64,000 nucleotides of DNA from an uncultured Pelagibacteraceae bacterium. Its GTDB lineage: Bacteria; Pseudomonadota; Alphaproteobacteria; Pelagibacterales; Pelagibacteraceae. The notes under the pieces are model-generated. The model was not told where the DNA came from. It searched no databases and was given only the letters and a program-made list of their open reading frames with translations. Below are positions 3,145 through 10,657 of the stretch, in pieces. The position numbers were made by a program, and so were the translations under genes. Where the stretch lies: the NCBI GenBank assembly GCA_902617625.1, contig CACMXJ010000005.1, forward strand, positions 1-64,000, given 5' to 3'. The first letter of the stretch is position 1. The number at the start of each line of letters is the position of its first letter.

Positions 3145-5685
3145 ATGAAAAAAATCGTTATAACAGGTGGCTTAGGTTACATTGGTACGGAATTATGCAA
3201 GATATATTCAGGATACAGTTGGAATGATAAAATTACAGTTATAGATAACAGATTTATTTCTGAAAGAGTAAATCAAATAAGAAACTGGAATATGACTTTC
3301 ATACAAGGTGATATTCTAGATAAAGATCTAATTAATGAATTTTGCAAAGATGCTGACATTGTTCATCATCTAGCTGGCATAACAGATGTGCCTCGAGTCA
3401 AAAGTGAGAGCACTTTTGAAAAAGAAGAATTGATAAGAAAAGTAGCAGAGGAGGGCACTCAAAATATTTTGGATGCAATCAGTGATGAATGTAAAATTAT
3501 TATGCCATCTTCACATGTCGTTTATGAAGGTCTAGATAGTGTTAAGAAGAATATTAAAGAGGATGAAAGAACCTGCCCAACTCTCGCATATGGCAAATCA
3601 AAAGATATTAATGAAAAACAACTTAAAAATTCTAAAAAAAATTTTGTAATATTGAGGCTTGCATCTGTATACGGTTACTCAACTGATACTGCTAGAATTA
3701 ATATAATGGCAAATTCTTTTGCAAAAACTGCTTCACAAAATGGTACGTTAAGACTTTTTGCAGGAGGAAAGCAAATTAAAAGTTTAGTGCCACTTATAGA
3801 TGTAGCTAGATGTTTTAAATTTATGGAGGAAAAAAAGGATATTAATCGAGAATTATTCAATTTATCTAAAGATACTGTTACAGTTAAAGAGGTTGCAGAT
3901 ATATGCAAAAAACATAATCCAAACATTGAACTAAGAGAAACAAACGACGAAATACCTAATTTAGGATTTTCTATATCAAATAACAAACTTTTAAAAACTG
4001 GCTTTAAATTTTTATATGGATTGGACGAGAGTATTAAAGAAATGATACAAAAGTGGTCTAAACAAAACTTAATTAAAGATCTTGAACATGTAAAAGATGG
4101 AGAGAATGAATTCGTCGATAGTCGAGGAAAAATTAGCAATCATGAGCTAACAGAACCAATAAATATGATTGGTTTAATTCACTCAAAAAAAGGCACTATA
4201 AGAGCAAATCACTATCATCCTCAACAAGAGCAAAAATGTCTTTTTACAAAGGGACAAATTATTGAAATTTTTCAGGATATTCTCAATCCCAATTCACCAA
4301 AAATAACTCAAGTAGTAAATGAGGGACAATTATCAATTATTAAACCCAATGTAGCTCATACAATGGTATTTACAAAAGATACAACTTTTTTAAATTTAGT
4401 TAGGGGAGAGAGAGAACACGAAAATTATGGGGTTACCCACACAATAAAACATGTTTTTGTTGATGAAAAAGAGAGAGATTTATTATTACGATATTATAAA
4501 TTTGAATGTAGATCATGTGGAAATGAAAAACTCAAAAGAGTTATTTCTTTTGGTTACCAACCATTAGCTAATAATTTATTAAATAAAAAAAATGAGAGAA
4601 CCGAGCTTTATCCCTTAGAAGTGAATTATTGTGAAAATTGCCACAATTGTCAATTATCAGTTTCTGTAGATCCAAAAAAAATGTTTTCAAATTATCTTTA
4701 TACATCATCAACATCTAAAATTTTTAGAGATCATTTCATTAATGCTGCTAACAAATATATTAAAGATTTCAAGTTAAGACCTAAAACTTCTTATATTATT
4801 GATGTAGGTAGTAATGACGGTGTGGCTTTAAGACCATTTTTAGATTTAAAATTTAAAAATATTTTAGGTATAGAACCAGCTAAAAACTTATCCAAATTAG
4901 CCAATAAGAATAACATAAAGACATTCAATGGTTTTCTTGAGAAAAAAAACCTAAAAAAAATTAAGAAAAATGCTGATTTGATTTTAGCTTCCAATGTCTT
5001 TGCTCACTCAGATAACTTGAAAGAGATGGCAGAATGTATGAAAAAATTACTTAAAAAAAATGGCACAATAATTATAGAAGTTCAATATTTATTAAACACA
5101 TTGAAGGATTTAACTTTTGATAATATTTATCATGAACATTATAATTATTGGTCACTAACATCTCTTATAAATTTTTTTAAACAATTTAATTTAACTATAT
5201 TTAGAGCAGAAAAAATAAAAACCCATGGAGGCTCAATCAGGGTCTACTTAAAAAATGGAAATATCAAGGTTGAGAATAATGTAAAATCTCTTTTAAAAGA
5301 AGAGGATAATTTTGGTATCAAAAAATTTAGTACCTACCAGAAATTTGCAGATAAAATTTACGAAATTAAAAAAAATGTTGTAAATAATTTGGATAATTTA
5401 AAAAAAGAAAATAATCAAATAATTGGATACGGCTCTCCAGCAAAAGCAACAACAGCATTAAATTTTTTTGGAGTAACTAATCAAATTGATTTTATTATTG
5501 AGGACAACAAGTTAAAACATAACAAATTTGTTCCAGGTGTTAAAATTCCAATATTTTCAAAAAATAAAATTAAAAAAAAGGTTAAACAAATTCTAGTCTT
5601 AGCCTGGAATTTTTTTGATGAAATTAAAAAGAATAACAGTAATTTATCTGAAAATTTTATTAATATTAAAGATTTAGAAAAGTAA
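3145..5685 (+). CDS. Multidomain sugar-modifying protein: NAD-dependent epimerase/dehydratase + sugar cupin + zinc-binding C-methyltransferase
   Basis: GGLGYIGTEL Rossmann and YGKSK motifs (~aa 1-310); cupin IRANHYHPQQEQ (~aa 318-455); CRSCGN..CENCHNCQ, IIDVGSNDG and GYGSPAKATT methyltransferase motifs (~aa 457-846). Confidence 0.85.
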   Translation: MKKIVITGGLGYIGTELCKIYSGYSWNDKITVIDNRFISERVNQIRNWNMTFIQGDILDKDLINEFCKDADIVHHLAGITDVPRVKSESTFEKEELIRKVAEEGTQNILDAISDECKIIMPSSHVVYEGLDSVKKNIKEDERTCPTLAYGKSKDINEKQLKNSKKNFVILRLASVYGYSTDTARINIMANSFAKTASQNGTLRLFAGGKQIKSLVPLIDVARCFKFMEEKKDINRELFNLSKDTVTVKEVADICKKHNPNIELRETNDEIPNLGFSISNNKLLKTGFKFLYGLDESIKEMIQKWSKQNLIKDLEHVKDGENEFVDSRGKISNHELTEPINMIGLIHSKKGTIRANHYHPQQEQKCLFTKGQIIEIFQDILNPNSPKITQVVNEGQLSIIKPNVAHTMVFTKDTTFLNLVRGEREHENYGVTHTIKHVFVDEKERDLLLRYYKFECRSCGNEKLKRVISFGYQPLANNLLNKKNERTELYPLEVNYCENCHNCQLSVSVDPKKMFSNYLYTSSTSKIFRDHFINAANKYIKDFKLRPKTSYIIDVGSNDGVALRPFLDLKFKNILGIEPAKNLSKLANKNNIKTFNGFLEKKNLKKIKKNADLILASNVFAHSDNLKEMAECMKKLLKKNGTIIIEVQYLLNTLKDLTFDNIYHEHYNYWSLTSLINFFKQFNLTIFRAEKIKTHGGSIRVYLKNGNIKVENNVKSLLKEEDNFGIKKFSTYQKFADKIYEIKKNVVNNLDNLKKENNQIIGYGSPAKATTALNFFGVTNQIDFIIEDNKLKHNKFVPGVKIPIFSKNKIKKKVKQILVLAWNFFDEIKKNNSNLSENFINIKDLEK

Positions 5686-7690: not shown

Positions 7691-7996
7691 ATGAAAAAAA
7701 TTAAGATCTCAATTCTAAGTGTATTTGTAATATTTTCTTTATTAGGTTGTCAGACAATTAAGCAAAAAACTGACGCTATTGTTGAGAAGGAAAATAAAAA
7801 ATTAAGTGCATTCATAGGTAAGTCCTCTCAAGATTTAAAAAGCAGTTTGGGTAGCCCAGATGAAGATTTTACTAATGAAAAAGGAAATTTAGTTTTAGTT
7901 TATAATACAAAAAAATACGGAATACCTTGCGAAAGAAGATTTGAAGTAAACGCAAAATTGATTGTTATTGGATTTGTTTCTAACGGTTGCTTTTGA
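7691..7996 (+). CDS. Small putative lipoprotein
   Basis: Signal peptide with lipobox LLGC; 101 aa. Confidence 0.65.
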   Translation: MKKIKISILSVFVIFSLLGCQTIKQKTDAIVEKENKKLSAFIGKSSQDLKSSLGSPDEDFTNEKGNLVLVYNTKKYGIPCERRFEVNAKLIVIGFVSNGCF

Positions 7997-7997
7997 T

Positions 7998-8031
7998 TAC
8001 CTGCGGAGAATTTATCTCCGCAAGCAAGGTA
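7998..8031. terminator. Intergenic hairpin between convergent lipoprotein and hsp20 genes; possible terminator
   Basis: 8-bp perfect stem TGCGGAGA (8002-8009)/TCTCCGCA (8015-8022), extended by TACC/GGTA outer pairing; no strong U-tract. Confidence 0.45.
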
Positions 8032-8034
8032 TAC

Positions 8035-8481
8035 TTATTTAATTTCAATAAGTTTTCTTTTTTTATGCTCTGGAACAATCCTCTCACAAGATATTGTTAA
8101 AAGACCATCTTTTAACTCAGCACCATTAACTTTCACATCATCAGCTATAGTAAATGATCTGGCAAATTGTCTTTGAGAAATACCTTTGTGAATTATTTCT
8201 CCATCGGCATTATTATTTTCAGATTTATTAACTTGTTTAGTTCTTACAGTTAATAAATTATCTTCAAACTCAACTTCAACATCGTTTTTATTAAAACCAG
8301 CTAAAGCAACTTCGATTGCATAATTATCCTTACCAGTTTTTCTGATGTTATAAGGTGGGTAGTTTGACTGCATAGTCAAAGAACCGTTACCAAGCATATT
8401 TTCAAATTGGTCAAACATATCGTCAAAACCAATTGAAAAAGGTCTTAGTGAGTTGAATATAGATAAATCCTTACTTGTCAT
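8035..8481 (-). CDS. Hsp20/alpha-crystallin small heat shock protein (IbpA-like)
   Basis: NIRKTGKDNYAIEVALAGFNKNDVEVEFEDNLLTVR alpha-crystallin domain. Confidence 0.95.
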   Translation of the reverse strand: MTSKDLSIFNSLRPFSIGFDDMFDQFENMLGNGSLTMQSNYPPYNIRKTGKDNYAIEVALAGFNKNDVEVEFEDNLLTVRTKQVNKSENNNADGEIIHKGISQRQFARSFTIADDVKVNGAELKDGLLTISCERIVPEHKKRKLIEIK

Positions 8482-8486
8482 AATAT

Positions 8487-8504
8487 CCTCCTTTGTTAAG
8501 CAAG
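8487..8504 (-). promoter_or_regulatory. ROSE-like RNA thermometer hairpin sequestering the hsp20 Shine-Dalgarno
   Basis: Minus strand CUUGCUU-AACA-AAGGAGG: U-A, U-A, C-G, G-G mismatch, U-A, U-G, C-G pairing of the SD with a UUGCU element. Confidence 0.7.
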
Positions 8505-8543
8505 TTTATTTATTGTTAGCCCCATTAGGCGACCAACAATGTT

Positions 8544-8572
8544 TATATGGGAGTTATTTGTTTTTTTTCAAG
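8544..8572 (-). promoter_or_regulatory. Sigma32 (RpoH)-type heat shock promoter for hsp20
   Basis: Minus strand CTTGAAA (8566-8572), 13-nt spacer, TCCCATAT (8545-8552); E. coli consensus CTTGAAA-N13-17-CCCCATnT. Confidence 0.75.
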
Positions 8573-8575
8573 ATA

Positions 8576-10657
8576 TCAAATTTTAATTTTTCCAGAGATC
8601 TTTAAAACAAATGCGTAGTCAAAAGCTATTTCTTCAATGGCACCATCTCTACCTGACTTCCCTCCATGGCCTGCGTTCATCTCAGTTTTTAACAAAAGCA
8701 AATTATTATCAGTTTTTAAATCTCTAAGTTTGGCTGTAAATTTTGCTGGTTCATCGAAAAGCACTCTATTATCACTTAAGCTTGTAGTAATTAACATGTG
8801 AGGGTAATCCATTTTTTTAATATTATTATATGGAGCATAAGAATAAATATAATCAAAATGGTCTTTTTTATCTTTTGCATTTCCGAATTCATCAAATTCT
8901 CCAACAGTAAGGGGCAAAGAATGATCCAAGTTAGTTGTTAATGAGTCAACAAACGGCACAGCCATAACAATTCCAAGAAATAATTCTGGGGATTGATTGA
9001 CTACTGCTCCCATTAATAAACCACCAGCTGATCCACCCATACCAATAATTTTTCCTTTCGATGAATATCCTTTTTCAATCAAAAACTTCGCTACGTGTAT
9101 ATAATCTTCAAATGTATTTTTTTTATTAAGAAGCTTTCCTTCTTTCCACCATTTCATTCCTTTTTCCATTCCTCCTCTAATATGTGCGGTTACCCAAATA
9201 ATATCTCTGTTAATTAAACTCAATCTAGTTGAGGAAAAATCTGGAGTCATTGAACTTCCATACGATCCATAGCCATACAAAAGTAAATTTGCTGAACCAT
9301 TAATTTTTGTTTTTTTGTGCCTGGTAATTGTAAGTGGAACTAATCTTCCATCATGAGAAGGGCACTCCAATCTTTCGACTATATAGTCATCTGGATTATG
9401 ACCAGATGGGATTTCTTGTTCTTTTACTAATTTTTTTTCTTTGGTTTTTAAATTGTATAAATAAGTTTTACCTGGTGTTTTTGGGGACGAATATGACAAG
9501 TAAACTGAGTCAGTATTTTTATTTCTTTGTATTAATGAAACATTGGGTACAATCACAGATTCGTCAGTAAATTTTAATTCTTCCTCAATTCCTGTTTGTT
9601 TATTTCTTACAAATAATTTTCCCAATGCATTTGATTTTTCTCCTCTGATAATCCAGTCATTTAAAAATATTAATCCTCCTATTAAAACCTCTTCTTTAGC
9701 TGCTATATAAATTTCCCACTTTTGATTTGATAAATCTTCACATCTTTCAATTTTGAAATCCTCTGCATCATCATTAGTATGACAATAAAAATATCCATCC
9801 CAAGAATTGATTGAATAAATTACACCTTTTTTTCTTTTTTTAATTAATTTTGGTTTTGGTTTTTTTTCTGTTACCTCAAAGTAGTATTGTTCGGAAGTAT
9901 TATGATCTGATGTTGTTATAAAAAAATATTTTTCGTCTGAACTCAAACTTATGCCCACAGTAAATGCTTCACTTTTCTCTTCAAAAATAAGCTCATCATC
10001 TTTGACTGATGATCCAATTTTGTGTCTAAATATTTTTCTTGGTCTATGAAATTCATCAAGCTTTGAATAAAAAAAATATTGGTCGTCCAAACTAAAAGTA
10101 ATATTTCCACTTGTTTCTTCTATTTTTTCAGTGACTAATTTTTCTGAGCTAATATTTCTTATGTAAATTGTATAATATTCTGATCCTTTTAAGTCTAAAG
10201 AATAACCTAAAAGTTTGTCATTATAACTTACCTCTAAATCGCCCACCCCAAAATATTCGGTTTTTAATTTTTCTTTTTCTACATCACCATTCCAAAATTC
10301 TTCAACTGTATTACTTCCAATTTTCTTTCTAAGTTTTATTGAATAATTTCCTACCGCAGTTGTTTTAGTCCAATATTCATATTCTTTGTCTTTAAATTTT
10401 AATGACTCATCATCTAACTTTATTCTACCTTTAATTTCATCAAATAAGATTTTCTGACATTTTTTTGTGTCTTTTAAATTATGTTCTGTAAAATTGTTTT
10501 CTTCTTCAAGATATTTCCTTACATCTGGAAGTAGCTTGGAACTATCTTTTAAAACCTCGAGAATATTATCCTGATGGATCCAACTATAATTATCTTCCCA
10601 CGTGGTATTGTGACAAGATTTAAGCTCTGGTTTTTTTTTAAGTTGTGGTATTTTCAT
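8576..10657 (-). CDS. S9 family prolyl oligopeptidase (oligopeptidase B-like)
   Basis: GYGSYGSSM, GGSAGGLLMG catalytic Ser, HGGKSGR catalytic His. Confidence 0.93.
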   Translation of the reverse strand: MKIPQLKKKPELKSCHNTTWEDNYSWIHQDNILEVLKDSSKLLPDVRKYLEEENNFTEHNLKDTKKCQKILFDEIKGRIKLDDESLKFKDKEYEYWTKTTAVGNYSIKLRKKIGSNTVEEFWNGDVEKEKLKTEYFGVGDLEVSYNDKLLGYSLDLKGSEYYTIYIRNISSEKLVTEKIEETSGNITFSLDDQYFFYSKLDEFHRPRKIFRHKIGSSVKDDELIFEEKSEAFTVGISLSSDEKYFFITTSDHNTSEQYYFEVTEKKPKPKLIKKRKKGVIYSINSWDGYFYCHTNDDAEDFKIERCEDLSNQKWEIYIAAKEEVLIGGLIFLNDWIIRGEKSNALGKLFVRNKQTGIEEELKFTDESVIVPNVSLIQRNKNTDSVYLSYSSPKTPGKTYLYNLKTKEKKLVKEQEIPSGHNPDDYIVERLECPSHDGRLVPLTITRHKKTKINGSANLLLYGYGSYGSSMTPDFSSTRLSLINRDIIWVTAHIRGGMEKGMKWWKEGKLLNKKNTFEDYIHVAKFLIEKGYSSKGKIIGMGGSAGGLLMGAVVNQSPELFLGIVMAVPFVDSLTTNLDHSLPLTVGEFDEFGNAKDKKDHFDYIYSYAPYNNIKKMDYPHMLITTSLSDNRVLFDEPAKFTAKLRDLKTDNNLLLLKTEMNAGHGGKSGRDGAIEEIAFDYAFVLKISGKIKI

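Follow-up and report, generated by a model that had tools for sequence, protein, structure and literature searches.

ROSE-like RNA thermometers are described as leaders in which a U(U/C)GCU strand is imperfectly paired to the Shine-Dalgarno (SD) sequence, with a mismatched or bulged G, downstream of at least one conserved hairpin (two to four hairpins in all), and in which melting and translation respond to temperature (PMC3669281, PMC4166951). The ROSE-like thermometers of Pseudomonas ibpA have been tested experimentally and consist of two hairpins with a total stability of −15 to −21.5 kcal/mol (PMC3669281). In E. coli the small heat-shock gene ibpA is under sigma32 and has a thermometer in its 5' UTR, and the IbpA protein is reported to repress its own translation (PMC10474464). 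Rfam represents alphaproteobacterial hsp leaders of this kind by the models ROSE_3 (RF02523) and ROSE (RF00435).

Here we describe the leader of the hsp20 gene in a SAR11 (Pelagibacteraceae) genome of 1.03 Mb (G000), analysed within a stretch of 64,000 nucleotides (the window). In our view this leader probably forms an RNA thermometer of the ROSE-like kind, short and with two hairpins, its temperature response being a prediction. The layout is closest to that of Pseudomonas ibpA (PMC3669281). Both leaders are restricted to two hairpins, of which hairpin I is stable and shows compensatory change, while in hairpin II a U(U/C)GCU strand faces the SD and the AUG is left free. They also have in common a sigma32-type promoter, a 5' UTR (predicted in SAR11) with a length near 60 nt and a similar folding energy (−16.9 kcal/mol in SAR11). 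It differs in that the host is an A+T-rich marine alphaproteobacterium for which the thermal function is predicted, A-U and G-U pairs contribute to closing the SD hairpin, and the anti-SD strand is additionally complementary to codons 2-4. The combination of a small heat-shock gene, sigma32 control and a 5' UTR thermometer, the last two predicted in SAR11, is also that of E. coli ibpA, whereas the ROSE1 layout is longer than the two hairpins found here.

Results

The hsp20 gene is present as a single copy (one match in the genome) and starts with an ATG at 8481-8479 on the minus strand. A 94-nt intergenic stretch separates it from a prolyl oligopeptidase gene (8576-10657) and contains, in order, the promoter CTTGAA-N15-CCCATAT (8572-8545), hairpin I with its 29 nt, a short linker and the element CUUGCUU-AACA-AAGGAGG (hairpin II, 8504-8487), which reads CTTGCTTAACAAAGGAGG and stops five bases short of the hsp20 ATG. 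The coordinates of the features are collected in Table 1.

Table 1. Features of the hsp20 locus, in window coordinates.
Feature	Position	Strand	Basis
hsp20, small heat-shock protein gene, 148 aa	8035..8481	−	PF00011, 64 bits
sigma32-type −35 box CTTGAA	8567..8572	−	motif match and conservation
sigma32-type −10 box CCCATAT	8545..8551	−	motif match and conservation
Hairpin I, stable stem, loop GCC-UAAU-GG, one bulged G	8512..8540	−	MFE fold and covariation
Anti-SD strand CUUGCUU containing the ROSE motif UUGCU (8503-8499)	8498..8504	−	Rfam alignments and motif conservation
Shine-Dalgarno AAGGAGG, 3' arm of hairpin II	8487..8493	−	sequence and fold
AAGUAAG in hsp20 codons 2-4 (+6 to +12), competing for the anti-SD by a perfect match of 7 bp	8470..8476	−	complementarity, codon invariance, energies

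The arrangement CTTGAA-N12-17-CCCATAT has a single exact occurrence in the whole genome, namely in the hsp20 leader. A close version of this promoter is present in 108 of 131 leaders, with a spacer of 15 in 103 of them. Given this promoter, with its spacer of about 15 nt, together with an RpoH encoded in the genome (TIGR02392, 359 bits), control of hsp20 by RpoH (sigma32) is predicted. The distance between sigma32 promoters and transcript starts is well established, and because of this spacing from the −10 and −35 boxes we infer that the hsp20 transcript starts around 8537-8540, at the foot of hairpin I, which would give a 5' UTR of about 57-60 nt.

Two further observations were made in the surrounding sequence. 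A hairpin TGCGGAG-ATAAATT-CTCCGCA (8002-8022, minus strand) lies between hsp20 and a convergent small lipoprotein-like gene (7691-7996, plus strand) and recurs in the downstream flanks of relatives; it is probably a terminator common to both convergent genes. At 3145-5685 (plus strand) an ORF of 846 aa, judged by eye, seems to join three parts in a single frame, one like a nucleotide-sugar epimerase, one cupin-like and one like a methyltransferase, and is possibly a natural gene fusion.

Both hairpins form in the fold of the 65-nt leader (−16.9 kcal/mol, z = −3.6), which only 1 of 200 dinucleotide shuffles equalled; for a 100-nt stretch instead of the 65-nt leader the z-score is only −2.0. Hairpin II comprises the pairs C8504-G8487, U8503-G8488, U8502-A8489, G8501.G8490, C8500-G8491, U8499-A8492 and U8498-A8493, closed by the loop AACA. 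This pairing of the SD with CUUGCUU at 8504-8487 had been put forward in the initial annotation and is exact on re-reading of the sequence, as is the upstream stem proposed there, in which ATTGTT (8540-8535) pairs with AACAAT (8517-8512) as the base of hairpin I. The G-G mismatch had been regarded as diagnostic. The G.G pairing is indeed possible and energetically favoured here, but it is not unique, since the motif G can be accommodated in two registers, either as a symmetric G.G or as a bulged G. Nearest-neighbour energies favour the G.G register for this leader, the RNAalifold consensus fold prefers the bulged-G register, and relatives bearing UCGCU are compatible with the bulged-G register only.

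We compared 301 bases around the hsp20 start with all 4227 Rfam models. ROSE_3 (22.1 bits, E = 0.016) and ROSE (19.7 bits) were the two best of the 4227 families, and both models align end to end, on the correct strand, with both hairpins of the leader. The ROSE covariance-model search suggested by the initial annotation thus picked out the expected families, but at only about half of their gathering scores (43 bits for ROSE_3 and 45 for ROSE). None of the leaders of the relatives reached a gathering score either, the highest scoring 28.6 bits, and the ROSE site was absent from the Rfam matches when the whole window was scanned. A whole-genome ROSE_3 search at E ≤ 10 was uninformative, giving matches in 13 of 14 control genomes and missing the window site at first. 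With scores below threshold and no match in the whole-window scan, the Rfam evidence is insufficient by itself. Because the thresholds are missed, by the relatives also, the leader is classed as ROSE-like by anatomy and homology and not as an Rfam-threshold member. In its anatomy UUGCU is imperfectly paired to the SD around a mismatched or bulged G, hairpin I provides a conserved upstream hairpin, and the element sits directly upstream of an hsp20 gene of the PF00011 family.

We built a covariance model (R1) from 27 SAR11-type leaders only, with no coding sequence past the ATG. In its own genome R1 gave 88.8 bits for the window site; the next best match scored 17.6 bits, and the matches at or below this score adjoin unrelated genes and were dismissed as chance. 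A blind scan of 190 genomes across the class returned six matches outside the order, and for four of these (L148, L150, L151 and L152) the exact end of the match is the start codon of an Hsp20-like gene. The remaining two were rejected: L149 is a hairpin that has a T run and precedes the gene of an ABC protein, and L153 is a chance match without hsp20. The loop of hairpin I (GCCUNAUGG) and the UUGCU/SD element are shared with the alphaproteobacterial ROSE family (RF00435). From this sharing and from the blind scan across the class, the SAR11 element appears to be homologous by descent to the ROSE elements of other alphaproteobacteria and no SAR11 invention. The sister family f2 has AAUCGCUUAAGGAGGAUU, the UCGCU form of the motif, in whose fold the G is bulged out; its leader is longer. 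In L150 and L151, both from another alphaproteobacterial family, there is no obvious CTTGAA promoter and the words TGACAT/TGTCA are repeated upstream, hinting at a different transcriptional control of these genes.

All 174 homologous hsp20 leaders (156 belonging to genes with 75% identity or more, 18 to more distant ones) carry UUGCU or UCGCU ahead of the SD, and the motif persists within the order and beyond although the flanks diverge. In an alignment of 51 leaders, 94.9% of the hairpin I cells are paired and 5 of 10 pairs are altered on both sides. Over the whole structure 33 cells are doubly changed, where shuffling gives 10.0 on average, a covariation signal that we trust for hairpin I only, as the MAFFT alignment is faulty in hairpin II for the g5-type leaders. 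These measures collapse once the partners are slid by 1-3 columns. One pair is seen as A-U, U-A, C-G and G-C. On the gene tree the pair types of hairpin I change many times and independent contrasts are almost never in the wrong direction, with too few per pair for significance. The covariation check that the initial annotation had called for was passed by hairpin I. The SD hairpin shows no variation in alignment A2 and so no covariation signal; a hairpin that hardly varies cannot covary. The evidence for the SD hairpin is instead the retention of its motif, the destabilising G included.

In a nearest-neighbour model, which ignores ROSE-specific non-canonical pairs and whose absolute values vary with the length folded, the accessibility of the SD is 0.34 at 10 °C and climbs to 0.68 at 40 °C. 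None of the 54 other start sites examined in the window shows so large an increase. With a C-G pair in place of the G.G, the SD stays closed at every temperature in the model. In longer RNAs the coding region competes in folding.

The anti-SD strand CUUGCUU is fully complementary to AAGUAAG within the codons ACA AGT AAG of hsp20. Of the 94 positions with a conserved amino acid in 130 distinct coding sequences, only codons 2-4 are free of any synonymous change; the median majority codon over these positions stands at 73%. The invariance (8470-8480, minus strand) stops at the edge of the anti-SD helix. The serine codon AGT is the majority codon at no other conserved serine position, and the lysine codon AAG is used at codon 4 although AAA dominates elsewhere. 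In neighbouring genes, non-preferred codons are not frozen to a similar degree. The 7-bp match is found in 153 of the 156 close homologues, with a synonymous-null probability of 0.007 given the amino acids. In leaders whose anti-SD reads CUUGCUA and not CUUGCUU, the base 5' of it is nearly always C or U and seven pairs are kept, in about three events. Collectively these data suggest that the anti-SD has a second partner in the coding region.

The pairings of the anti-SD with the SD and with the coding partner are mutually exclusive and similar in energy, the coding hairpin being at least as stable. When this sequence is modelled at rising temperature, the anti-SD leaves the SD for the coding partner, a shift that is lost or locked by synonymous changes. 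One close homologue (L158) is the only one to break codon 4 (K4R, AGA); its SD hairpin, which has AATGGAGG in place of AAAGGAGG, is weakened too, as though the two pairings had relaxed jointly.

Discussion

Our data on hsp20 leaders of SAR11 and its relatives support the thermometer identity proposed in the initial annotation, with the two ROSE models at the top of the Rfam ranking, covariation in hairpin I and R1 matches in front of hsp20 genes elsewhere; the thermal behaviour is a prediction. Given an anatomy like that of the tested Pseudomonas ibpA thermometers, hairpin II is expected to hide the SD in the cool and to melt in the warm. The mRNA would begin at the base of hairpin I, from the sigma32-type promoter, with hairpin I serving as a stable conserved scaffold. 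In hairpin II the UUGCU strand would pair imperfectly with the SD AAGGAGG, the G.G mismatch or bulged G keeping the pairing weak. By comparison with tested ROSE elements, the SD would be sequestered under cool conditions, and warming or heat stress would melt hairpin II and allow 30S binding. RpoH would boost hsp20 transcription while the thermometer would provide immediate and reversible translation. Ocean temperatures lie below the switching range of tested ROSE elements, which counts against a thermometer.

An extension of the thermometer, with which it is compatible, concerns codons 2-4. In Pelagibacter and the nearest genera these codons may be frozen by competing with the SD for the anti-SD, so that a simple melting zipper would become a two-state switch including coding sequence. 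CUUGCUU would then exchange between the SD (closed) and AAGUAAG; as a result the SD might be released when it gets warmer, or the start codon might be held in another closed state. The codon invariance with its non-majority serine and minority lysine codons, the 7-bp match in nearly all close homologues, the stability of the coding hairpin and the modelled transfer that synonymous changes abolish or lock all favour such a switch. However, if the two hairpins are compared in isolation, the coding hairpin is preferred at every temperature, and the modelled edge over synonymous variants is weak, lying above the mean of the mutants in 25 of 45 relatives; as a robust in silico thermal switch the coding partner did not generalise over these 45 and was set aside. 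The change of codon 5 from GAT to GAC abolishes the modelled effect, yet GAC occurs naturally. Furthermore, the register-shift compensation comes down to about three events and the partner is missing from more distant ROSE-bearing genera. On balance we view the two-state switch as a tentative proposal, more doubtful than probable. The coding partner may act as a second closed state or as a release partner, or may reflect an unrelated RNA-level constraint on codons 2-4.

By analogy with other small heat-shock genes, the leader might instead be mainly a binding site for Hsp20, which would repress its own translation until titrated by unfolded proteins, thermal melting being secondary. IbpA is reported to act in this way through the 5' UTR in gammaproteobacteria, and the same has been suggested for alphaproteobacterial IbpA (PMC10474464), but these mRNAs carry RNA thermometers too and the two controls are not exclusive; we regard self-repression as the main role of the SAR11 leader as unlikely. 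An ordinary strong ribosome-binding site with chance complementarity upstream of it, in which hairpin I merely protects the 5' end of the mRNA and no temperature is sensed, would agree with the shortness of the SD hairpin and the modest thermal predictions across relatives, but is very improbable in view of the motif retained without exception beside diverging flanks, the covariation of hairpin I and the blind retrieval of hsp20 genes by a leader-only model.

The SAR11 ROSE-like thermometer is apparently previously unreported. We found no ROSE element or RNA thermometer in SAR11 in the literature searched, a provisional result as most subscription papers and the 2005 ROSE survey lay outside its scope; neither a study of Pelagibacter structured RNAs (PMC2704228) nor one of ROSE-like elements (PMC11342760) reports such an element.

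If our reading is correct, one of the most abundant and least regulated bacteria of the ocean has a built-in temperature sensor. A conserved hsp20 thermometer would show that mRNA can sense temperature directly in cells living at ocean temperatures, and its set-point could be compared between lineages of warm and of cold water. Synonymous mutation of the frozen codons 2-4 would be a clean way to test for a role of coding sequence in a ROSE thermometer, and the coding-strand partner, if functional, would set the SAR11 element apart among ROSE thermometers.
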